Of a DNA stretch of 64,000 nucleotides, positions 19,048-48,678 are shown in pieces; position 1 is the first letter of the stretch, and every line of letters begins with the position of its first letter. The notes under the pieces are model-generated. The model saw nothing but the letters and a program-made list of their open reading frames with translations. It did no database searches and was not told the origin of the DNA. Origin of the DNA: Pseudomonadota bacterium (GTDB lineage: Bacteria; Bdellovibrionota_B; Oligoflexia; Oligoflexales; CAIYRB01); NCBI GenBank assembly GCA_026390435.1, contig JAPLFY010000027.1, positions 1 to 64,000 on the forward strand, read 5' to 3'. The position numbers were made by a program, and so were the translations under genes.

Positions 19048-19106
19048 GCTGCCTCATCCCTGAGGCGGCAAAAATCATGCGGAGTTGCCTTTAAGGCCGT
19101 GACTGC

Positions 19107-19463
19107 TTATTGACCGACGGACTGCAAACAGCCTTCGGTGCAACGGAACTTGCCGCTGCCTGAACCCCATGGGGTGCCTTCTTGGCCTTCCGAGTAGCCA
19201 ACGAAGGAGCAATCTCTGCCATCGCGGTTGTACGCGTAGCATTTGTTGGAAGAGTCATTATTGTTGTTGTCGCCTCTCCAACCTGGATCGACGTTGCCGT
19301 TACCGTAGTCAACGGCGGAGACACAAGGGACGTAAGCCGAGTCCCAGCTACCTGGCCAAAGACATTCTTCCGACCACTCTTGGGCGGATGCTGCACCCGA
19401 AATGAGCATCATAGCCAGTACTGCAGCTTTAGCGCCGATACTTAAAGATTTCTTTGCGATCAT
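19107..19463 (-). CDS. Small secreted Cys-rich protein (six cysteines)
   Basis: A protein of 118 residues. The signal peptide spans about residues 1-27 (MIAKKSLSIGAKAAVLAMML, cleavage near GAASAQEW). The mature 90 residues are rich in Gly, Asn, Ser and Trp, with six cysteines (ECLW, PCVS, KCYA, DCSF and the pair RCTEGC), an even number suiting three disulfides. A five-residue Asn run (DNNNND) is encoded by near-repeat AAY codons. No family was recognised. The 220 bases upstream contain an AT-rich stretch (19530-19560) that may hold the promoter. A second small Cys-rich secreted gene lies at 20496-20897. Confidence 0.7.
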   Translation of the reverse strand: MIAKKSLSIGAKAAVLAMMLISGAASAQEWSEECLWPGSWDSAYVPCVSAVDYGNGNVDPGWRGDNNNNDSSNKCYAYNRDGRDCSFVGYSEGQEGTPWGSGSGKFRCTEGCLQSVGQ

Positions 19464-19681
19464 GATTTAACCCTCAGAATATAGTTTGTTAACTGAAGAG
19501 GCGGCTTTTTAACACGCCCATTTTAAAAACAAAATATATTTATTTAATATTAATAAATCAGAGGCTCATAGTGAGTGGCCGCCGTGCGACATCACCTCTG
19601 GTTGCGAGATCAGGGCAGTTAGTCAGGGCAGGTAAGGGCTGGCACCCTCACATTCTGCTAAAGAGTCGCATATAAAAAGAA

Positions 19682-20338
19682 CTACTTCTTCCGGCAAAGA
19701 TAAAGGCCGTCAGATACGTTAAGCATCACCCGGTCAACCCGGTCATCCTTGGCGATGAAATCGTTGAAAGTGCGCAGCACATTTGTATCGGCCTCTTGGT
19801 TGGCTTCATCTGCAACTGTGCCACTCCACAGCGCATTATCGCACATGATCAAGCCACCGCTGCGCAGCAGCTGCAGGCCACATTCATAATAGTTCATGCT
19901 GTTAGCTTTATCGGCATCGATGAACATGATGTCGAAACTGCCAACGCCGAACTCCGCAATCATCGAGTGCAGAGACTGCAAGGCTGGACCAATGCGGAGC
20001 TCAATTTTGTCTTCTAACCCTGCCGCAGCGAAGTAACGCTTCGCCATAAGTGTGGTATCCGCATCAATATCGAGGGTAAATAATTTACCACCCTCGGATA
20101 GACCACTAGCCATCGAGATCGCGCTATAGCCCGTGTAGCAGCCGATTTCAACGATGCGGCGCGCTCCGGTCAGTTTCACCAGTAGGTTCATGAGCGCGCC
20201 CTGCTCAGGAGCAATGAGCATTCCTGATCCAGGTATCGTGAGCGTCTCCTGCACCAAAGCTGCCAGGACCTGGCTCGGTGGTGGCGTATGCGCCAGGATA
20301 TAGCTGTATAACGACTCAGTTAACGGAATGGCTTTCAT
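19682..20338 (-). CDS. Class I SAM-dependent O-methyltransferase (COMT family)
   Basis: A protein of 218 residues, standard for the caffeoyl-CoA/catechol O-methyltransferase-type bacterial family. The SAM motif I is VEIGCYTGYSAISMA (about 68-82), the acidic ribose-binding residue lies in KLFTLDIDAD, and the family signature FIDADKANSMNYYECG carries the metal-binding Asp/Asn. LIMCDNALWSGTVAD contains the second metal site. Bacterial members methylate catechol-like hydroxyls with Mg/Ca dependence. The physiological substrate is unknown. The gene lies just downstream (in transcription) of a duplicated 3' fragment of the GT51 gene. Confidence 0.88.
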   Translation of the reverse strand: MKAIPLTESLYSYILAHTPPPSQVLAALVQETLTIPGSGMLIAPEQGALMNLLVKLTGARRIVEIGCYTGYSAISMASGLSEGGKLFTLDIDADTTLMAKRYFAAAGLEDKIELRIGPALQSLHSMIAEFGVGSFDIMFIDADKANSMNYYECGLQLLRSGGLIMCDNALWSGTVADEANQEADTNVLRTFNDFIAKDDRVDRVMLNVSDGLYLCRKK

Positions 20339-20381: not shown

Positions 20382-20418
20382 ATCATGGGATTCGGCTAGC
20401 GGCATCCACCGTCTTCAC
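20382..20418 (-). repeat. Duplicated 3' end of the GT51 gene (copy 1)
   Basis: This matches 21032-21068 at 35 of 37 positions. On the minus strand it reads V-K-T-V-D-A-A-S-R-I-P-stop, nearly the exact last codons of the GT51 gene (V-K-T-V-N-A-A-S-R-I-P-stop). The two differences are transitions, one silent and one Asn to Asp. No homology continues on either side. It therefore marks one border of a block of about 613 bp. Confidence 0.8.
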
Positions 20419-20495
20419 CCCAAGATAACGGGAAGGCACGGGGTACCCATTAAAAGGCGTTCGGAGCGTCAAACACCTTCTAATGGTGAATCGCG

Positions 20496-20897
20496 CTATG
20501 GTCTCGTCCAACAGAAGTCGGAAAATTGGGATGTTACAACGCCATTGGCATCAGCCACAAAGCAGCTAACGGAATAATTAAACTCATCCCAGTTACAGGT
20601 AGCACGATGATAAATATCGCCAGCCCTCGACCAACAACTCACCGTGCTGCCGTTGCCACAGGTAAAGGTGGGAGTATCACAGTAATTGTTGCCCCCTGGC
20701 ATCGCGGCTGGACCGGATGGCGGCTGCCCCTCCTGAACACGGCACGAATGCGAGCCGTTAGGATCGGTCACCGCAGGATCCCAGCCATATCCATTACCGG
20801 TATTGCTGCCGTTGGTGCAGTAAGGGTAGTCAGCGCCGAATGCTGTCAGGGACAGAGCGGCTACCGCGGAAAGTAAAATTACGCGCAAAAAACTCAT
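20496..20897 (-). CDS. Small secreted Cys-rich protein (eight cysteines)
   Basis: A protein of 133 residues. The signal peptide spans about residues 1-21 (MSFLRVILLSAVAALSLTAF, cleavage near GADYPYC). The mature part has eight cysteines, many Gly/Asn/Ser/Trp residues and a Pro-rich segment (EGQPPSGPAAMPGG), suggesting a disulfide-stabilised extracellular or surface protein. No domain was recognised. The gene is the only one inside a block bordered by 37-bp direct repeats derived from the 3' end of the neighbouring GT51 gene, with a 13-bp minisatellite directly upstream, so it may be an acquired cargo gene. Its composition resembles the secreted protein at 19107-19463, although the cysteine spacing differs. 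Confidence 0.7.
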   Translation of the reverse strand: MSFLRVILLSAVAALSLTAFGADYPYCTNGSNTGNGYGWDPAVTDPNGSHSCRVQEGQPPSGPAAMPGGNNYCDTPTFTCGNGSTVSCWSRAGDIYHRATCNWDEFNYSVSCFVADANGVVTSQFSDFCWTRP

Positions 20898-20973
20898 AAA
20901 GTGAAGCCTCAGAGGGAATAGGGTTAGTACACAGTGGCATGAGCTCTTATCATCTCACTGGCTCACTGGCAAG

Positions 20974-21032
20974 GAGTCCAGCAGACGAGTCCAGCAGACG
21001 AGCCCAGCAGACGAGCCCAGCAGACGAGTCCA
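20974..21032. repeat. 13-bp tandem repeat (four and a half copies)
   Basis: The unit GAGTCCAGCAGAC begins at 20974, 20987, 21000 (variant GAGCCC), 21013 (variant GAGCCC) and partly at 21026. The array runs directly into the second 37-bp repeat and the GT51 stop codon. It lies outside any reading frame I accept. It is too short-spaced for CRISPR and probably formed by slippage. Confidence 0.9.
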
Positions 21033-21068
21033 TCATGGGATTCGGCTAGCGGCATTCACTGTCTTCAC
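21032..21068 (-). repeat. 3' end of GT51 gene forming the second direct-repeat copy
   Basis: This is the partner of 20382-20418. It contains the real stop codon and last eleven codons of the GT51 gene. Together the two copies border the block carrying the eight-cysteine secreted protein, a layout like attachment sites that recreate a gene's 3' end. No integrase gene lies inside. Confidence 0.8.
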
Positions 21069-23135
21069 ATTACAGTCTGGAGCTAGTAACCTAGCGTCTT
21101 CATTGAACTGTATGGGGGCTGATAGAGCCTCCACGAATCGCTCACTCGTGATATGGCGTAGATTAACCATGCGTTTGAGCAGGCCGTTGACTAGTTCACG
21201 GAAATTAGCGGTCACGCGTCCCTGGCAAAAATAGCGATAACGAATCTTGGGGCTCGGCAACAAGTTCGCCAGATAAGCCGCCTCGACCAAGTTTAAACCA
21301 TCGGGACTTTTACCAAAAAAGCGCTGCGATGCCGTAGTTATGCCGTAAATACCGGGGCCTAGCTCGACAATATTCACATAGATTTCGAGAATGCGGTCCT
21401 TACTTAGAATTTGCTCCAAGTGCCAGGCCAGGAAGATCTCCTGCGCCTTTCGGGTCATCGTTCGCTCGGGCGTCAGAAACAAGTTCTTTACCGTTTGCAT
21501 CGTGATCGTCGAGCCACCCAGGGCGATACGCTGCTCGCTTAGGTCTCGGCGCAATGCACTTGCAATGGCATTAACATCGACGCCCTTGTGTAGATAAAAT
21601 CCAGCATCCTCAGAGGCAACGAAGGTTGAATTCACGTTATGCGAAACTTTATCTAGTGAGGCATAAGTCGGAGAACTGGGACTGACCTCGATATCAATCG
21701 GTAGTGCATTTTTAGTGACTTGCCGGCGGATCGAGAAGGGACCGTTGAGCCTCTCGGCTGAGTAAGCATAAGGCGCTTCATCAACTTTGCAGTTAAATAA
21801 CGCGTCATGCAGCGAGACATAAGCATCTCCGAGACTGCGCGTCTTCATACTGATATCTAAAGTAGCAGCTACGTCACCACTGAGGCGAAAACCATTCAGT
21901 GCTGGCAGCAATCCTTGGGGCGCCGCATTCAAGGCGGTTTGGCATGGCGTAGACGGCAGACTCAAATGCGCGTTTACCACCTGACCGCCTAAGGACGGTG
22001 GCTCCATCTGCCAGCTACCGTTGAGCGCAAAACGCGCTGCGCGATCCCCGTACTCACGGTTCACATTATTCGGCAGACTGACGGTGCCACTGTCGATGGT
22101 TAAGAGGCGCGAGGTGGGCTGATAGGATCCCGACGCCTTGAGGTCGAAGTAGACCGGTCCAAGTGGCTGTGAACTCACGAGCGGCAGCTGAACGATGCTA
22201 CCTTGACTCTGAACCTGCGTATTAAACTGCCAGAGATTTTCCCCTCGGGTCAGCTCTAAAATCACTCGCCCACGAAGTTGCTTAAGACCTATCGGCAGAT
22301 CTTTGAAGATCGGTGTTATGAAAGATGGCATTGAGTGCATATCTGCAGTCAGCTGAATATTTCGTAGGTCCTTCTGCAGGATCCCAGTCACCCCCCAAGC
22401 ATTTTTATTGCGATTGGAGCCATCTTTACGCCGCAGAAAAAAGCGGTAATCTTTCGCGCTAGGGCTGAGCTCAAATCGCGCCAACAGATCACGCTCGCGA
22501 ATACCACTACGAGTCTTCAACTCACCAAGTCGCAACAATACTCGACTGGCTTCGCGCTCGACCGAAAGCTTAAGTCCCTGCACGCTAAGCGCAGCTTCAC
22601 CATCGGAATCTAGCAAAGTGATACCCACACTACCCATCGACAGCTCAGGACTGGGTAGTGAGGCAAAAAGTTTTTCAATGGTACGCTGTGCCTCTTGGCT
22701 GCGATCAGAAAGATCGCTCATAGTATTCTCGCCACCGAGCAGCGGAGCGCGTACCTGCTTTTCCGTCGCCTTTATCCGCATATCTGCGATGGCGATGCTG
22801 CTGATTTCACCAAAACTAGAGTCAAGCGGATTGATATTCAAATCAGCCCGCATGGAGCTGATGACCACCTGAGCCTCACTACCGATCCGCACATCGAAAA
22901 AGCGAGCGCCACCCAAGCCAATATCCACGCGCCCAATTACGATGGGCGCCCCGATTTTTTTGCTCGCGCGCTCAACGGAACTATCGATCTTTGAAAGAGC
23001 ATAACCTTCAAACTGCGACCACGAGTAGGCAAACAAACATAAAGCCACGGAAGCGCTGATCAGCGCCACCGCAGTGCTCTGCAGAACTAAGAAATGCTGT
23101 CGCCGGAGTCTCCGGTAGCGTCGTTTAAAAAGCAA
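21033..23135 (-). CDS. AsmA-like domain fused to monofunctional peptidoglycan glycosyltransferase (GT51)
   Basis: A protein of 700 residues. One N-terminal membrane helix (about 19-38) is followed by a periplasmic, beta-rich region (about 45-470) with AsmA/DUF3971-like character: repeated short strands, IAIADMRIKA, LTADMHSMPS and LNGFRLSGDVAATLDI. The C-terminal 195 residues are a complete GT51 domain. It has catalytic Glu-509 in ASEDAGFYLHKG, GGSTITMQTVKNLFL, RTMTRKAQEI and the second Glu-591 in YVNIVELGPGIYG. There is no transpeptidase domain. GT51 enzymes polymerise lipid II into glycan strands. The large AsmA-like part could contact the outer membrane or lipids; that is inference. Its 3' end is duplicated downstream. 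Confidence 0.85.
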   Translation of the reverse strand: MLFKRRYRRLRRQHFLVLQSTAVALISASVALCLFAYSWSQFEGYALSKIDSSVERASKKIGAPIVIGRVDIGLGGARFFDVRIGSEAQVVISSMRADLNINPLDSSFGEISSIAIADMRIKATEKQVRAPLLGGENTMSDLSDRSQEAQRTIEKLFASLPSPELSMGSVGITLLDSDGEAALSVQGLKLSVEREASRVLLRLGELKTRSGIRERDLLARFELSPSAKDYRFFLRRKDGSNRNKNAWGVTGILQKDLRNIQLTADMHSMPSFITPIFKDLPIGLKQLRGRVILELTRGENLWQFNTQVQSQGSIVQLPLVSSQPLGPVYFDLKASGSYQPTSRLLTIDSGTVSLPNNVNREYGDRAARFALNGSWQMEPPSLGGQVVNAHLSLPSTPCQTALNAAPQGLLPALNGFRLSGDVAATLDISMKTRSLGDAYVSLHDALFNCKVDEAPYAYSAERLNGPFSIRRQVTKNALPIDIEVSPSSPTYASLDKVSHNVNSTFVASEDAGFYLHKGVDVNAIASALRRDLSEQRIALGGSTITMQTVKNLFLTPERTMTRKAQEIFLAWHLEQILSKDRILEIYVNIVELGPGIYGITTASQRFFGKSPDGLNLVEAAYLANLLPSPKIRYRYFCQGRVTANFRELVNGLLKRMVNLRHITSERFVEALSAPIQFNEDARLLAPDCNVKTVNAASRIP

Positions 23136-23205
23136 TATTGGTTCAGTGTGTGAAAGGGGGTCAATTAGCGTGGTTACCCCTTTATAATACCATCTTTAAT
23201 CGTTT

Positions 23206-23286
23206 GGGGTCAGGCACTGGCTGCAACATGTTGAAATCCATTATAGTCAATTGATTTCAGATAGTTACGGAGAGTGCCTGACCCCA
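23206..23286. repeat. REP-like palindromic element, full copy A
   Basis: Starts GGGGTCAGGCACT and ends AGTGCCTGACCCC (13-bp perfect inverted termini), with an inner TGAAATC/GATTTCA stem. The right 37 bp (23250-23286) recur exactly at 24584-24620 beyond the next gene. This termini type is common in dispersed palindromic repeats mobilised by REP-associated tyrosine transposases. No such transposase is in the window. Confidence 0.8.
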
Positions 23287-23401
23287 CCCAAAAAACATTA
23301 AAGTTTTTTCAGCTTTTTACCGATAAAGCCAAATATCAACAATGATTCTTTTTTTATGTGTTTTTAACGAGACAACCAATTTAGAGACCGTGGAGAAAAG
23401 C

Positions 23402-24514
23402 ATGAGAAAGAGCTGCCAATCGGCTTTGTCGCTGAACACACGCGTTCGCTTCGTTTTGCAAAGAGCAACTATCGGGGTGATGGCAGGCACCACTGTGCTA
23501 GCACTAAGCTGCTCTAACCAGAATTCCAATAGTAGTTTAGAAAGTACTATTTCGGAGAGTGCCCGCGCACTGTTTGACGTGTACTCGCTCGCAAGCACCT
23601 CCAAGGAGTTCTTAAGTTCCCTAGATGCGGCACTCAATAACGAGACAACTAGTCTCAGCGAGACTTTGCCAAAAGTGGGCAAGGTCGGGGACTTTGTGTT
23701 TAACGACTTCGATCAGCGAGTCAAAAGCCTAGCCACCAAGCAGCCTTACAAATTTAAAGGTAATTTGCGCAAACTTTTGTCTCTAGGAAATCAAACATCA
23801 GCAAGGATAACGGTGCAAGACTTCCAGCTAGCTGAGAATTATATAGCTGATAATCTTAAGGCCGTGGAAAACTCGGCGGCAAAGCAAACGCTTGCTAAGA
23901 AATACACTCCGCAGGAAATCTTGCGTGCAACCCACGCAGCGGCCGTGATCAGCGCCCTTCCGCAATCGTCGTCAGCACGCGTAAACGCGGCATTAAATTT
24001 AACGCCGGGTAAAGACGTAGGTGCTGCCGCTAAAGGCATTGGGGAAGGAGTAGGTGCAGCAGGTTCCGGCGTTCAAAAAGCTGCAAAAGGTGTAGGCGCA
24101 GCCACTGTTTGCGGCAATTTAGTCGGTTATGGATGCGGCAAGGCAGGCCAGGGTTTTGCTGACAGAATTAACGATTTTAACAACCAAAACGGCCAACAAA
24201 ATCAGTGCAAAGACAACTCCAAACCGAGCGAAGCATGCACCTATGAAGTTGCTAGAAGAGCTGGCAACGGAGAGATAATCGGTGAAGCTCCATGTGGTTG
24301 GGTGAAATATAAATGCGAATGCAATGAGACTTATACGAAGGTGGGCGAGGGAGCCGATGAAACATGGAAACATAAGGATAAGGAGACAAGCGGTTGTCAT
24401 GCCCAAAAAGATCCTAGTTCGCAACCTGCCACACTTCAAGAGCCCAACAGCACTGCTGTAATCAATCTATGCAAAGAGATGAACAACATTATGAGTAATT
24501 GCACGGGTGGGTAA
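23402..24514 (+). CDS. Lipoprotein with Cys-rich C-terminus, flanked by repeats
   Basis: The longest frame starts at 23342, but ATG 23402 has GGAG eight bases upstream and gives a proper lipoprotein signal: basic start, hydrophobic GVMAGTTVLALSC, lipid-accepting Cys-37. The product has 370 residues. The middle is helical (about 50-200), followed by a Gly/Ala-rich hinge (GKDVGAAAKGIGEGVGAAG) and a C-terminal 140 residues with about twelve cysteines, probably disulfide-bonded. No family was recognised. The gene lies alone between palindromic element A and its isolated right half at 24584-24620. A TATCCCT/AGGGATA hairpin (24526-24553) follows the stop. It may be acquired. Confidence 0.7.
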   Translation: MRKSCQSALSLNTRVRFVLQRATIGVMAGTTVLALSCSNQNSNSSLESTISESARALFDVYSLASTSKEFLSSLDAALNNETTSLSETLPKVGKVGDFVFNDFDQRVKSLATKQPYKFKGNLRKLLSLGNQTSARITVQDFQLAENYIADNLKAVENSAAKQTLAKKYTPQEILRATHAAAVISALPQSSSARVNAALNLTPGKDVGAAAKGIGEGVGAAGSGVQKAAKGVGAATVCGNLVGYGCGKAGQGFADRINDFNNQNGQQNQCKDNSKPSEACTYEVARRAGNGEIIGEAPCGWVKYKCECNETYTKVGEGADETWKHKDKETSGCHAQKDPSSQPATLQEPNSTAVINLCKEMNNIMSNCTGG

Positions 24515-24583
24515 TAAGCAAGATGTATCCCTAGCGCATAACCGCCAGGGATAGCGCATATCTTACACGCGCAGTGGTCTAGG

Positions 24584-24620
24584 ATTGATTTCAGATAGTT
24601 ACGGAGAGTGCCTGACCCCA
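24584..24620. repeat. REP-like element, isolated right half (copy B)
   Basis: Identical over 37 bp to the right half of copy A (23250-23286), ending GTGCCTGACCCCA. The left half is missing. With copy A it forms direct repeats around the lipoprotein gene. Confidence 0.8.
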
Positions 24621-32485: not shown

Positions 32486-32511
32486 ACTAGTCATCAACTT
32501 ATCGATCGCAA

Positions 32512-33327
32512 TCACCCGCGCGAACCCAACGTCGCAGGTGATTCACTCACCTGTTGCGCTATCTCCCGCCTGATGTTGCCGCGTTGCGCCGCAAGCAACC
32601 AAATTCTATAAATCGCCTCGACGACAATGCTGCCGGCCATTTTTGATTGGCCCGCGCGCCTCTCGACAAACAAGATGGGGACTTCGCGCAGCGAATATCC
32701 GGCTAAATGGGCGCGAAATTTAAGTTCGACCTGAAAGGTGTAACCCTCACTGCGGATGCGGTCGGGATTGATATCTACCAACACTTGCCGATGCCAGGCA
32801 TTAAACCCCCCAGTCAAATCGCGCGCCTTAAGACCCAAAATGGTGCGAGCATAAAGGCTACCACCGATGCTGATAAAGCGGCGAAAGCGACTCCAATTGC
32901 GCGTACCGCCACCAGGGATATACCGGCTACCAATGACTACCGGACTTGCTGGCACAACCTTCAGCAGCGCCGCCAAATCTTCCGGCCTGTGGGAATGATC
33001 GGCATCCATCTCAATCAGCACGTCATATCCACGCGCCAGGCCCCACTTGAAGGCGGCCACGTAGGCTGTACCCAGACCGAGCTTACCGCTGCGACTAATG
33101 AGAAATACCCGGTCGACATGCTCTGCCTGAAGCTCAGCAATCACCTTCGGCGTGCCGTCTTGACTATTATCATCGACGAACAAGATGTCCACGTCGGGAG
33201 CATGCTGACGAATTCCTGCCGTCAAAGTCGCGATATTGTCGACCTCGTTATAAGTAGGAATGACGACCAGAACCTTCAACGCTGATGCACTTTGCAAGCT
33301 GGCTCTCCTGAGGCTCGACGGGGTCAC
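32512..33327 (-). CDS. Polyprenol monophosphomannose synthase-like GT2
   Basis: A glycosyltransferase family 2 protein of 271 residues. GT2 nucleotide-sugar motifs are VVIPTYNEVDNIATL, LFVDDNSQDGTP, the DxD motif in EMDADHSH, and ARDLTGGFNAWHR. This last motif and REVPILFVERRAGQSKM are typical of dolichol/polyprenyl-phosphate mannose synthases (DPM1/Ppm1-like). No C-terminal membrane helices are seen, so it is a catalytic-domain-only enzyme at the inner membrane. It would supply the lipid-linked mannose donor for a GT39-type transferase such as the one at 6505-8100. GDP-mannose would come from ManC. Confidence 0.9.
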   Translation of the reverse strand: MTPSSLRRASLQSASALKVLVVIPTYNEVDNIATLTAGIRQHAPDVDILFVDDNSQDGTPKVIAELQAEHVDRVFLISRSGKLGLGTAYVAAFKWGLARGYDVLIEMDADHSHRPEDLAALLKVVPASPVVIGSRYIPGGGTRNWSRFRRFISIGGSLYARTILGLKARDLTGGFNAWHRQVLVDINPDRIRSEGYTFQVELKFRAHLAGYSLREVPILFVERRAGQSKMAGSIVVEAIYRIWLLAAQRGNIRREIAQQVSESPATLGSRG

Positions 33328-33623: not shown

Positions 33624-33730
33624 TAGCAGGTCGTAACTAGCGCCATCGCCTCAGATCAGCCATTGTGATATCGGCAAAGGCCGCAACTTCCTCGGTAATA
33701 GCGGAGTATCTGGCAAAGCTCACGCCTTAT

Positions 33731-35227
33731 TCAGAAGAGAAGAACGTCCTCTGGGTCGTCAGAGAACGCCTTGGCTCGGGCCAGCGTCCGCTGTGCAGAT
33801 TCGAAGGTCGTATAGTCGATGGATGCGGTGAAGCACTGGGCGCGCTTCAACATCTTTATATAGACGGCCGGATTGTCGCTGCGCGTTAGCTTCTTCACGC
33901 CGCCAAGGTAGTCCAAGCGGTAGACCGTCGGGATGATGATGGGTACCTCGGACGCCGCGTACAGCTCACGGTTCATGGCGATTCGGCTCAATCGGCCGTT
34001 GCCGTCCGTAAAGGGGTGTACCTCGGCCACCAGGAATTTGACGAAGGCAGCGCGAGCGAAACCGGGCTCAAGCGCCTGGAGGAACTCGAAGCCCTTATGT
34101 AGTGTCCCTTCCACCAGCTCTGGTTCGACGAAGGCAGTGGAGCCAGCAAAATTGCGGACACTCTTGAACTGGCCAGGAAGCTTGTCCGGGTGTGCCTTCA
34201 TGATCGACGCGTGGTAACGCATTAGGTCAGCCGCCATCGTTCCGTATGACGCCCAAGTCTCGGGACGAGTCGAGGCTATCCCCATCAGCGTACGGAAGGT
34301 GCCGAGCATGTCGTGTCCGTCCGGACGCCGGTCGGGAATCTTGCCCTCAAAGGCGATGGCGCGTGCTTCGTCAATCTCGAATCGGGTTCCCTCGATGTAG
34401 TTCGAGAAGTAAGCGTCGAAGAAGCACAATGTCGATGGAGCGCTACCCGAGTGGAGAACCGCATCTAGGGGTAGCTTCGTGGGCAGGCTCGCCGGTTGGC
34501 GAAGCGCCTGAAATAGTCGCTCGAAGCGAACGACCCTCTCCGGATCATAGGGAAAGCCGGTCGCCCTCTGTTGCGCGCGGTCCGATTTGAGGGTCCCATC
34601 GGTGCGAGTCTTTAACATGGTCCCGACCAGTTTTTGGAATCTCTCCGCCTCCTGGGTGAATCCGTTAGCCTCTGCCAGGCGGTGGAGGGCATTTATCCTC
34701 TCCCGAAAGGCGTTCTCGCCGCTGACGCGGATATAGTCGTCGAGATGCTCCTCTAGCTTCTCCTGTGAGAGCACTTTGCTGAACCCGCCGTGAGCCTTGA
34801 CGTGGCGCAGATTCTCCAACCAGGCCCGTTCAGGAGACGCGAGATGCAGCCCCCCAGCGAATGGCATGTCGCCCGGGAGCGCCTCCGGCCCCTTGACCAA
34901 ATGCACGGTCAGGCCCGGGAGTCGCACTTTCTTGTCGTACTTGTAGGAGAGAACGATGTGCCAGTCGTCACTCAGCTTGGCTGGGCCTGCCTCCAGGGCG
35001 CTACGGTGGCTGATAATCGCACCTGCATAGAGCGCGCCCAGGACCTGGTATAGGTTACGCCGGAGAACATCAGCCGGCTCTTCCGCAATTGCGGTTGTAT
35101 AGATGCCGGGGGCGAGGCGGCGAAGCCCCCCTACCTTGACGGCCTCCGAGATAGCATTTGCGAGAGTCCCAGCGCCTGTCGAAAGGACCAACTCGCCCAT
35201 GAGGTTTTGACGGATGACAGGTCGCAT
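33731..35227 (-). CDS. AbiEi-like winged-helix/antitoxin domain fused to Fic AMPylase
   Basis: A protein of 498 residues with two parts. Residues 1-165 resemble AbiEi-type type IV antitoxin/transcription-factor N-termini: a winged-helix stretch with GGLRRLAPGIYTT (34-45), then AGAIISHRSALEAGP and the beta-rich DDWHIVLSYKYDKKVRLPGL. Residues 225-498 are a Fic domain. It keeps the inhibitory motif SNYIEG at 275-280 (S/T-x-x-x-E-G/N, class II position) and the complete catalytic HPFTDGNGRLSR at 404-415. Fic enzymes transfer AMP from ATP to a target protein hydroxyl. Base composition looks more G+C-rich than neighbours, suggesting transfer. A palindrome at 35276-35291 upstream suits self-regulation. 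Confidence 0.85.
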   Translation of the reverse strand: MRPVIRQNLMGELVLSTGAGTLANAISEAVKVGGLRRLAPGIYTTAIAEEPADVLRRNLYQVLGALYAGAIISHRSALEAGPAKLSDDWHIVLSYKYDKKVRLPGLTVHLVKGPEALPGDMPFAGGLHLASPERAWLENLRHVKAHGGFSKVLSQEKLEEHLDDYIRVSGENAFRERINALHRLAEANGFTQEAERFQKLVGTMLKTRTDGTLKSDRAQQRATGFPYDPERVVRFERLFQALRQPASLPTKLPLDAVLHSGSAPSTLCFFDAYFSNYIEGTRFEIDEARAIAFEGKIPDRRPDGHDMLGTFRTLMGIASTRPETWASYGTMAADLMRYHASIMKAHPDKLPGQFKSVRNFAGSTAFVEPELVEGTLHKGFEFLQALEPGFARAAFVKFLVAEVHPFTDGNGRLSRIAMNRELYAASEVPIIIPTVYRLDYLGGVKKLTRSDNPAVYIKMLKRAQCFTASIDYTTFESAQRTLARAKAFSDDPEDVLLF

Positions 35228-35275
35228 AAGCCCCCCGGCGGGCGTGAAATTCTGTCCGAGGAGTGGCCCGCGTGC

Positions 35276-35291
35276 ATTACCTATCGGTAAT
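35276..35291. promoter_or_regulatory. Palindromic operator candidate upstream of the Fic gene
   Basis: ATTACC (35276-35281) and GGTAAT (35286-35291) form a perfect inverted repeat with a 4-base spacer, about 50 bases upstream of the Fic start. Next to it (35300-35350) is a very AT-rich stretch containing TATATT on the minus strand, a likely promoter region. The fusion protein's winged-helix domain is the obvious candidate binder; this is inference. Confidence 0.45.
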
Positions 35292-35485
35292 TTTCATCCA
35301 AAAAAACCCTTTTGTCGTGAATTTTTTTCTAATATATAAATATTCTGTGAAATCATTTACTTATGGAATATAGGAGTCGCTCGAGCCCGCATAGTAGGAA
35401 AATTTTCACACTAAATCATGAATCCTGGATGAATCTTCACATCATTCCGGAGTCAGCCACCTTTGGCGTGACAACAACAAAATTT

Positions 35486-35779
35486 TTATGGCTGACGCGC
35501 CTGCTCGAGATAGAGCAGCCATGCTGCAGCGGTCAAATCGCGCTTCTGATTGTTGCAAGGCTTGCAGGCCGGCACGATGTTGCCAGGGGTGGATCTTCCG
35601 CCCTGCGCGATCGGCACCACGTGATCCATGGTGACCTCCGATTTCTCCAATGATTTCGAGCAATAGTAGCAGGTCGCCTTGGTGATCAGCGTCTGCCACC
35701 ACCTAGACTTACGCAAAAGCCGCGCCTCTTCACGCTCGCGCCGCAGATGCTTATCTGAAGAAAAGTCGCCGAAATCCAC
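35486..35779 (-). CDS. HNH endonuclease
   Basis: A small HNH nuclease of 97 residues from the GTG at 35777-35779 (GAGGG seven bases upstream; a TTG six bases earlier is less likely). It has zinc-finger-flanked HNH motifs: CYYCSKSLEKSEVTMDHVVP with CxxC and the DH pair, GGRSTPGNIVPAC, and CKPCNNQKRDL with the second CxxC and the Asn/Lys. This McrA-like domain cuts DNA in a metal-dependent way. It stands alone, 259 bases from the Fic gene start and on the same strand, upstream. Those bases are AT-rich with the operator candidate. Role unclear: defence, mobile-element remnant or repair. Confidence 0.85.
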   Translation of the reverse strand: MDFGDFSSDKHLRREREEARLLRKSRWWQTLITKATCYYCSKSLEKSEVTMDHVVPIAQGGRSTPGNIVPACKPCNNQKRDLTAAAWLLYLEQARQP

Positions 35780-45799: not shown

Positions 45800-47230
45800 A
45801 TCCAACCAAACGCGCACCGACGCCGGCTGTCTCTGACGCTAATCACTGGCGCTGTTAGCGAGAGCATCAACAAGATTGCTCCGCTCCTGGTTCTTTACAT
45901 TGGGCAATCTGTACTGACAGTGTCTGGCTTTGGCTCAGTGCAATTCGCGCTGTCATTCATCGATCTTTTCCTGCCCTTCATTGCTTTTGGCTACGGCGGT
46001 TTCGGCTCCATCGCTATTGGCAGACCCGAGAGCAGCCCGATACCGATAAACAAAGTAGCTCCAGCGATCGCAGTGCTAAAACTTGCACAAAGCATGGTGG
46101 CACTTTCGATTGCCGCTCTTTTTTTGCTACTACCGAGATACGTTGAATACCGCACGTTAGTGTGCGCACTTAGCTTTCTCTTCATCTCGTCGGCGTTAGA
46201 CACAGAATATGTACACTCAGGAACACAAACTCTAACGGTCCGAAATTTATTTAGCATGCTGAGTAAAGGCATTTGCCTTGTCGGCGTCATCTTGCTGGTA
46301 AAACATCCAGAAGACAGCCTTCGGTATGGCGTCCTGACAGCATTACCTAATGCATTAGTCGTATTTATGTCGCTATTTTATACCGTTCGCAGGTTGCCAT
46401 GGCATAAACCGTCGATGGCAGATCTAAAGACAGTATTCCTGCAAGCCACCCCCTTCGGCATCACCACCATACTTTGTTTATTAGTGGAGCGCTTTGACGT
46501 CTTCTTTGTTGAAGCGATCGGTGGAAGTACAGCAGTAGGACTTTATGCCGGACCATTACGTGTCGTTCAAAGTATCGCCACAGCTGCCACTATGGTCAGT
46601 GCGATCTACTTCTCTGAACTAGTTCGCATCAAAGATCCGCGATCTTTCAGCCGGCATGTTGAGTTCAGTATCTTGACGGCCGCTCTTGTGTTGGCACCGG
46701 TGGCCGTGGGCGCATGGTTCGTCGGTGACGACCTACTGGCAACGGTATTTGCCGCCACTTACTCGGGGCGCGGCCCGATCCCAGGTTATGTACTCGGCAT
46801 TTTGTCGTGTGGCGTAGTCGCTACTGTTGGCATCAACGCCTTTGGTTTGCAGGTGCTCTGGCTGAAAAACAACTTAAAGCCTCTAAATTGGATTTATTTC
46901 TTCGGTCTTTTAGGTGGCTGCTCAATGGCCACCCTCTTAGGTTGGACGTTCGGCGTACTTGGTGTCGCAGCCGCAGTCCTCATTGCAAAGTTAGGCATCG
47001 CCATTGGCTGCTACCTAGTTGCGAAACGCTTTCTTCCCGGCTTCTCATGGGCTTTCGCAGTGCGCATTAGTGTGGCCTGTATTGCCATGGGTGGCGTCTT
47101 AGCAGCCGTCGGTGCCAATTACTCGGTATGGGCACGCATCGCCGCTGGTGCCGTCACTTACGGCGTGGCTACGGGTTTATTATTTCGCCATGAATGGCCA
47201 AGGGTGATCAAATCTCTGCGACGGTCATGA
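45800..47230 (+). CDS. Polysaccharide flippase (Wzx/MATE-like), probably with an ATC start
   Basis: A protein of 476 residues if started at ATC 45800, which has AGGGGA upstream at proper distance. The first canonical start in frame is GTG 45920, but the in-frame stretch before it (RLSLTLITGAVSESINKIAP, then LLVLYIGQSVLTV) is a typical first helix of flippases, continuing into GFGSVQFALSFIDLFLPFIAFGYGG. About 12-14 helices follow, with the MurJ/Wzx-like pattern. Flippases move polyprenyl-linked sugars across the inner membrane. No other polysaccharide genes are adjacent. The noncanonical start or a mutated ATG needs checking. Ends 63 bases before the DUF4143 gene's stop. Confidence 0.75.
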   Translation: MQPNAHRRRLSLTLITGAVSESINKIAPLLVLYIGQSVLTVSGFGSVQFALSFIDLFLPFIAFGYGGFGSIAIGRPESSPIPINKVAPAIAVLKLAQSMVALSIAALFLLLPRYVEYRTLVCALSFLFISSALDTEYVHSGTQTLTVRNLFSMLSKGICLVGVILLVKHPEDSLRYGVLTALPNALVVFMSLFYTVRRLPWHKPSMADLKTVFLQATPFGITTILCLLVERFDVFFVEAIGGSTAVGLYAGPLRVVQSIATAATMVSAIYFSELVRIKDPRSFSRHVEFSILTAALVLAPVAVGAWFVGDDLLATVFAATYSGRGPIPGYVLGILSCGVVATVGINAFGLQVLWLKNNLKPLNWIYFFGLLGGCSMATLLGWTFGVLGVAAAVLIAKLGIAIGCYLVAKRFLPGFSWAFAVRISVACIAMGGVLAAVGANYSVWARIAAGAVTYGVATGLLFRHEWPRVIKSLRRS

Positions 47231-47293
47231 AGTAACATCGGTCACTGCTTTGGAGTTAGAGTCGCATTGACCAGGGTATTTATAGCATTTGAG

Positions 47294-48541
47294 CTAGGGG
47301 GCCGGATGCTCGAGCAGCCACTGGCGCACCGGCTGGATCACCAACTTGACGTCGCCGATGCGGATCTCGTCAGCGTGATCCCAGGTTAATATGCGTATTT
47401 TCTTAACCCGTAGTTCGGCCGAGGCCTGTGCTAGAGCGCGCAGCTCGCGGTCACGTGTCTTTTGTTCGTGCATCGTCCAAGCCACTTGGATCAGCTCATC
47501 GTTCTGTACCCCAATGCGAGTCAGAAAATCGACCTCATAGCCACCAGCGGTGACGTAATAAAACAGATTCATGTTTGGTTCAAACCCGCGCCGCACCAGC
47601 TCGATGAAGACAGCATTTTCGAGCAAATGCCCATAGTCCGGACTGTTCGAGATTTTCTTGGCCGTCAGGAATCCGTTGTCATAGACATAGGCCTTACGGT
47701 CGAACTTCAGGCGCTTTCTTGCCCCGAAATGGAAGCGAGGCAGCTCGGCAAACAGATAAGCCTGCTGGCCATACAGTAGAAACTTCTTAACAGTTGGCGA
47801 GCTGATCGCGGCGTCTAGTCCGCGCACAAGACTGTCGTTACTAAAGCGCGATGCCACACTGTGAAGCACAAGCGTATAAAGATCGTGAAGCTCTTGAACA
47901 TTACGAATCTTAAAGCGGCGCACGACATCTTTGAGGACAATAGAATCCCAAAGTGCGCCGAGGTAGCTGCTGACATCGGCCTTGCCAATAACGACTTCTG
48001 GGAACCCGCCGTGAGTCAGATAGCGCATCAGCGCATCGTCGCCTTCGGCAGACCCAGCGGCCGAACATTCGCGGTAAGAAAACGGCAGCAGCTTTAAGGC
48101 AAAATGGCGGCCGGTCAGAGCCGTGGCCAGCTCGCGACTGAGAAGGTGGGCATTCGATCCGGTAACCAGGCAATTGTAGCCTTCACGATGCAGCCGGTGG
48201 AGGAACGATTCCCAGCGCGGGAAGTTTTGGATCTCATCGAAAAAATAATACTTGGCTGTGGGGTAGACCTGCTTAAGCGCCGAAATGATGTCGTCACCAG
48301 TGGCTTGCTGGGGAAAACCTTCGTCCTCGAAGTTGAGGTAGGCACAGGCTTTGCCACGCATGACGAGTTTGGCCAGTGTCGATTTTCCGCACCGGCGTGG
48401 TCCGATAATGACCTTGACCAGTGGTGACTCAAGGGCATCCAATAACGTTGTTAGGCTTTCACGGCCGACTATGGGCTCACTAAGAGGCCGTCGGAGTTCG
48501 GCCTTTTGACGCAGCACCAATTGGTAAAGTGAGTTGCTCAT
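47294..48541 (-). CDS. AAA ATPase with DUF4143 C-terminal domain
   Basis: A protein of 415 residues, typical of the stand-alone AAA_14/DUF4143 family. Walker A KVIIGPRRCGKSTLAKLV, Walker B YYFFDEIQNF, sensor LVTGSNAHLLSRELATALTGRH, a linker helix region, then the DUF4143 part with a PD-(D/E)XK-like pattern (GHLLENAVFIELVRRGF, YYVTAGGYEVDFLTRIG and LIQVAW). The catalytic acids of the nuclease fold appear to be present (EVDF, Gln/Val/Trp motif). These genes are scattered by horizontal transfer and of unknown function, possibly defence or regulation. A palindromic element lies 59 bases upstream. Confidence 0.88.
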   Translation of the reverse strand: MSNSLYQLVLRQKAELRRPLSEPIVGRESLTTLLDALESPLVKVIIGPRRCGKSTLAKLVMRGKACAYLNFEDEGFPQQATGDDIISALKQVYPTAKYYFFDEIQNFPRWESFLHRLHREGYNCLVTGSNAHLLSRELATALTGRHFALKLLPFSYRECSAAGSAEGDDALMRYLTHGGFPEVVIGKADVSSYLGALWDSIVLKDVVRRFKIRNVQELHDLYTLVLHSVASRFSNDSLVRGLDAAISSPTVKKFLLYGQQAYLFAELPRFHFGARKRLKFDRKAYVYDNGFLTAKKISNSPDYGHLLENAVFIELVRRGFEPNMNLFYYVTAGGYEVDFLTRIGVQNDELIQVAWTMHEQKTRDRELRALAQASAELRVKKIRILTWDHADEIRIGDVKLVIQPVRQWLLEHPAP

Positions 48542-48599
48542 ACTTTATAATAATTCCATTTATTCTAAAGTACAAGATTTCTATTTCTTGACGGTTGAC

Positions 48600-48678
48600 G
48601 GGGTCAGTCACTCTCAGCAAGCAACGGTTATTGCTGCAAACAAAACATTTCAGTAGCTTGGCGGAAGTGACTGACCCC
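48600..48678. repeat. REP-like palindromic element, copy C
   Basis: Starts GGGGTCAGTCACT and ends AGTGACTGACCCC, 13-bp perfect inverted termini, with a 53-base centre. It is a variant (TCAGTCAC) of copy A (TCAGGCAC). It sits between the DUF4143 gene start and the dienelactone hydrolase gene. Confidence 0.8.

Follow-up and report, generated by a model that had tools for sequence, protein, structure and literature searches.

How did the 3' end of a transglycosylase gene come to stand on both sides of a block that holds a single other gene? The window analysed here is a stretch of 64,000 nucleotides from contig C26 of the 4.28-Mb draft genome (G000) of an uncultured lake bacterium. In it the GT51 gene (21033..23135, minus strand; Pfam Transgly) is followed by an inserted block of 613 bp (20419..21031), whose far side is adjoined by an O-methyltransferase (OMT) gene (19682..20338, minus strand). 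The block is bordered by a 37-bp direct repeat, and its two copies, a distal one (D, 20382..20418, minus strand) and a proximal one (P, 21032..21068, minus strand), are identical at 35 of 37 positions with a spacing of 650 bp. The repeat consists of the final 11 codons of the GT51 gene and the stop codon, as the initial annotation had described, and of one additional base. A match as good as 35/37 within 64 kb has a chance expectation of about 7e-10. The annotation had also proposed a genome-wide search for further copies of the GT51 3' end; in the 4.28-Mb assembly, with up to three mismatches allowed, the 37-mer occurs twice, both times at this locus. With two copies in the genome, a dispersed repeat family was rejected.

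The only ORF in the block (20496..20897, minus strand) encodes a putatively secreted protein of 133 aa with eight cysteines and a hydrophobic stretch at its N-terminus. The absence of an integrase from the block, noted at the outset, holds, as neither an integrase nor a transposase fragment was found there. Between G000 and its sister species G002 the dN/dS of the cargo gene is 0.29, compared with 0.08 for GT51 and 0.03 for OMT, a value which indicates that the gene has been kept under purifying selection. Its GC content is 54% vs 52% in the neighbouring sequence, and paralogues with 46-50% identity are found elsewhere in both genomes. The protein has no match among Pfam models or PDB sequences, and its predicted structure (mean pLDDT 46.5) is of too low confidence for a fold search. 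Rfam gave no match over the window. No relative was found in a phage collection or among viral contigs, and phage cargo was rejected as an explanation. Many larger, apparently secreted proteins of the genus begin with the N-terminal module of the cargo protein (YPYCTNGSNTGNGYGWDPAVTDPNGSHSC), some of them with tandem copies of it; we would guess, by eye and with no Pfam match, that this module resembles a carbohydrate-binding domain and that some of the larger proteins resemble esterases or expansins. A module of about 35 residues, GYPYCTNGSNTGGGYGWDxxVTDPxGSHSCLV, for which there is no Pfam model, is repeated in secreted proteins genus-wide (L051, L052, L053, L060) and is possibly a new binding module. 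The initial annotation had listed two features between the repeats, a single Cys-rich gene of secreted type and a minisatellite. The former stands, while the latter, a 13-bp unit (GAGTCCAGCAGAC x 4.5; 20974..21032), is not a constant part of the border. It is expanded in G000 and has only about one unit in G002, and is therefore a later product of slippage.

Elsewhere in the window (19107-19463) lies a further small Cys-rich, putatively secreted gene of 118 aa, which is missing between the lactamase-fold gene and the methyltransferase in two more distant species, G004 and G005. Relatives with 62-80% identity are present on other contigs of G002, G004 and G005. Conserved mobile flanks around this gene family were considered and rejected, since the DNA similarity is largely limited to the coding sequence. 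The same part of the window (19060-19680), together with positions 70888-71275 of the G000 contig and 1-499 of G002 contig C105, marks a break of synteny in G002. There the end of the lactamase gene adjoins sequence that G000 has at 71 kb, and an AATCAGG-type minisatellite marks the join; an inversion of some 52 kb would account for this.

The genomes available for comparison are draft assemblies, the named ones being metagenome-assembled genomes (MAGs). The sister species G002 (lake MAG Loclat_bin-10810), in which the GT51 protein is 95% identical to that of G000, has the same block between the same repeats (L031, 798-834 and 1401-1437). In the more distant species G004 and G005 (GT51 identity 65 and 64%) there is a single 37-bp copy and no block. 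This is the empty site whose existence the initial annotation had left to be sought, and it bears out the view that an insertion recreated the GT51 3' end at both borders. The distance from the OMT start to the GT51 end is accordingly about 60 bp in G004 and G005 vs 694 bp in G000 and 647 bp in G002. The block itself measures 613 bp in G000 and about 566 bp in G002, with no remnants of anything larger. The flank to the left of D (GGACTTTATCA) matches the empty site of G005, and P is attached to the body of the GT51 gene. D is therefore the displaced original gene end, still on its ancestral flank before the OMT gene, and P is the copy that the GT51 gene now uses. Five differences separate the four copies of the two species, and each of them is found in a single copy, from which it follows that the repeats were still identical at the split of the G000 and G002 lineages. 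The block is a genuine and fairly recent one-gene insertion with a duplicated gene end, slightly older than the split.

Deletion between direct repeats also leaves a clean single copy, and the gene end could thus have been duplicated long ago, with an ancestral block lost from the other species by recombination between the repeats. This is very unlikely. The block gene is missing at the locus in four species of the genus and in G006 (the block protein has no match in the GT51 contigs of G001, G003 and G006), which makes gain more parsimonious than loss, and the repeats were identical at the time of the sister-species split. No distant relative was found that has this arrangement and repeats that have diverged, which would be the sign of an old tandem duplication; the arrangement occurs in one sister species only. 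A misassembled metagenome bin might also produce such a structure, given drafts and MAGs as the material. The chance of this is negligible, and G002 refutes it for practical purposes: two species, separately assembled and with a DNA divergence of about 6-10%, share both block and repeats.

A second repeat-bounded block, also with one gene, lies about 2 kb from the GT51 site. A REP-like palindrome (23205..23286) forms one of its borders with its right 37 bp (23250-23286), and an exact repeat of these 37 bp (24584..24620) closes the block of 1297 bp (23287..24583). The cargo (23342..24514, plus strand) encodes 390 aa, or 370 aa from the ATG at 23402, and has no Pfam or PADLOC match. The block is absent from G002, G004 and G005; in the comparison with G002 contig C75 the palindrome is present once and the gene is missing. 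Both G000 copies of the repeat read CAGATAG and G002 reads CATATAG. Since the two G000 copies share a base that G002 does not have, the second copy was made locally.

At the third site, about 12 kb from the GT51 block, it is G002 that is filled. The 3' end of a GT2 gene is present once in G000 (32508..32609, minus strand) and three times in G002 (C75 11557-15088; L031 and L187), where the repeats R1 to R3 are 105-111 bp long and 90-92% identical. They enclose two toxin-antitoxin modules, an AbiEi/AbiEii pair and a nucleotidyltransferase/HEPN pair, and the site is empty in G000, G004 and G005. Both blocks contain fragments of IS91-family (Y2_Tnp) transposases. Another species has a copy of the AbiE module and its IS91 fragment (G003 C173, L292). 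The identity between the two is 95.5%, far above the divergence at genus level, and the module has therefore moved between species recently. R1 and R2 share about 17 bp that are missing from G000, which fits a cargo that brought its own repeat and counts against duplication of the target. R1 carries its private differences mostly on one side and R3 on the other, apart from one exception, and a chimera test of the repeats for a site-specific crossover was suggestive, not significant.

All three sites thus fall within about 12 kb of the window. Our survey covered 1.09 Mb of G000 and 0.585 Mb of G002, and no other convincing repeat-bounded site was found in it. The remaining direct repeats of similar size and spacing are due to repetitive coding genes, REP-like repeats, tandem gene copies and low complexity. 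The clustering is no more than suggestive, the survey having started from the GT51 locus. With separate events of a like kind about 2 kb and 12 kb away, the stretch looks like a modest local hotspot for single-cargo insertions and not like a classical integrase-driven element. A hotspot at the replication terminus was rejected, as GC skew is uniformly negative across 117 kb and a search for dif-like sites gave nothing convincing. Three further G000/G002 indels in the aligned part have no flanking repeats. One is an insertion relative to G002 with a Fic-family gene of 498 aa (33627-35487). In another (47220-48600) an AAA_14/DUF4143 ATPase (PADLOC PDC-S01) directly adjoins a REP-like palindrome, and G002 has 7 bp in its place. 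The third, on G002 contig C37, holds small Cys-rich genes. Gene-end cassettes of coding sequence exist on another contig of G000 (C32 142402-147389, L207), where three direct repeats of 370-440 bp (373-438 bp) encode a tail-fibre-like C-terminus with an SDIRLKRDL motif. These are possibly silent C-terminal cassettes, and we regard them as a separate class.

What process duplicates a gene end in this way? Rather than a decayed integrase element, we favour an insertion whose target was duplicated in the course of repair or replication, and would put the chance that this mechanism is correct at about even. Some 613 bp of DNA, with the gene for one small Cys-rich, putatively secreted protein, entered the short gap behind GT51 in the common ancestor of the two sister species. 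The GT51 gene retained its C-terminus and stop codon, and the original copy was pushed to the far border. The 37 bp of the target may have been duplicated while foreign DNA was being captured, either by fill-in at a staggered break or by a replication or template switch with re-entry upstream. Presumably no site-specific integrase was involved, and the location just past the stop codon may simply be what selection permits. A target origin of the duplications is suggested by the repeats, which differ between sites in sequence and length (37, 37 and about 105 bp), and by the local origin of the REP copy. What speaks against it is that the repeat length is exactly 37 bp at two of the three sites and that the outer border is 1 and 4 bases beyond a stop codon at two sites. 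A fixed machinery that targets gene ends would give these features too, although borders near stop codons can be explained by selection for an intact upstream gene.

Of the other explanations, a small circular cassette with its own copy of the gene 3' end is the one that we consider a real, if clearly less probable, possibility. It might have integrated by short homology (Campbell-type) or with a tyrosine recombinase acting in trans. The repeats would then be left and right junctions, and it is to the same limited degree plausible that the block can excise. The recreation of the gene end on both borders, the outer border lying 1-4 bases from the stop codon at two sites, the alternation of repeat and cargo (repeat-cargo-repeat-cargo-repeat) at the GT2 end in G002 and the mostly opposite-sided private differences in R1 and R3 are all in its favour, and several tyrosine recombinases are encoded elsewhere in G000. 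However, the repeats differ from site to site, so that each cassette would have to bring a homology of its own; there is no integrase nearby, the REP-site repeat has the base of G000 and not that of G002, and the differences at GT2 do not segregate cleanly. An IS91/ISCR-like rolling-circle capture, in which one-ended transposition takes the cargo with the adjacent gene end and the product recombines back alongside, is unlikely. It would fit the IS91 fragments in both toxin-antitoxin blocks and the AbiE module with its close G003 counterpart, but such fragments are missing from the GT51 and REP-site blocks, so on present evidence it cannot be a general account.

The initial annotation had leaned towards a minimal or remnant form of a site-specific integrative element, and our results speak against it. 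In such a history a larger island or prophage would have lost its integrase and most genes by deletion, leaving attL, attR and one cargo gene. The geometry of the borders does resemble attL and attR at a gene 3' end. Yet the block is bare in both species, it has no trace of an integrase or transposase, the 37-mer is present nowhere else in the genome, and no related element is present in the phage and viral collections. The neighbouring one-cargo blocks would have had to decay equally, and they have other target sequences and lengths. The base in the REP-site repeat that G000 has and G002 lacks points to duplication of local sequence and not to an att site carried by an element. We consider this history improbable, slightly more so than rolling-circle capture.

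The GT51 locus offers a polarised example, with a filled site, a sister with the same block and empty outgroups, of the gain of one gene at a gene end with no visible integrase. Three sites in 12 kb, which differ in age and whose repeats range from 37 to about 110 bp, allow one to ask what process duplicates so much target. We speculate, and regard it as a long shot, that a host-encoded or trans-acting process of this lake genus, so far undescribed, places single operons at gene ends. That this same process accounts jointly for secreted-protein and toxin-antitoxin operons, with 37 to about 110 bp of target duplicated each time within one 12-kb hotspot, is an equally long shot. If a common process is real, it would be a route for the horizontal acquisition of single genes that leaves no integrase behind.

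Insertion sequences and transposons likewise duplicate target sequence upon insertion. Their target-site duplications are usually a few to about 14 bp long, whereas those described here, at 37-105 bp, are far longer, and the GT51 block has neither block-spanning terminal inverted repeats nor a transposase ORF. Nor does the region resemble an integron gene cassette array, as no integron integrase was found in the region of the window and the repeats are not common to the sites. Islands and prophages that enter gene 3' ends by means of a tyrosine integrase are alike in that the gene end is recreated at both borders and relatives have an empty site. Unlike them, the block here is 613 bp with one gene, the 133-aa ORF without a Pfam match, and no integrase (PF00589 genes are on other contigs), and the target sequences differ between neighbouring blocks.

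In complex class 1 integrons with ISCR1, duplicated segments have been attributed to rolling-circle transposition together with homologous recombination (PMC8386438). As with the duplicated 3'-conserved segment of those systems, the cargo here is flanked by direct repeats of a gene segment that was already present, and the GT2 blocks of G002 contain IS91 fragments. That array may therefore represent a different route, one resembling ISCR1 and its 3'-conserved segment. The GT51 block differs in having no trace of IS91/ISCR and a repeat of only 37 bp. The additive flexible genomic islands (fGI-2) of freshwater Methylophilaceae can hold 1 to 63 CDS, with repeats of the last 20 nt of tRNA-Lys in front of them (PMC10872708). 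They share with our sites a strain-variable cargo that can be as small as one CDS and direct repeats of a gene end. In contrast to these tRNA-associated islands, the ends duplicated here are those of protein-coding genes and of a REP palindrome, the repeat is not the same from one site to the next, and the window has no tRNA genes. With no tRNA, no integrase and repeats that differ between sites, the GT51 block is not a member of that class, but it behaves as a minimal additive genomic island would.
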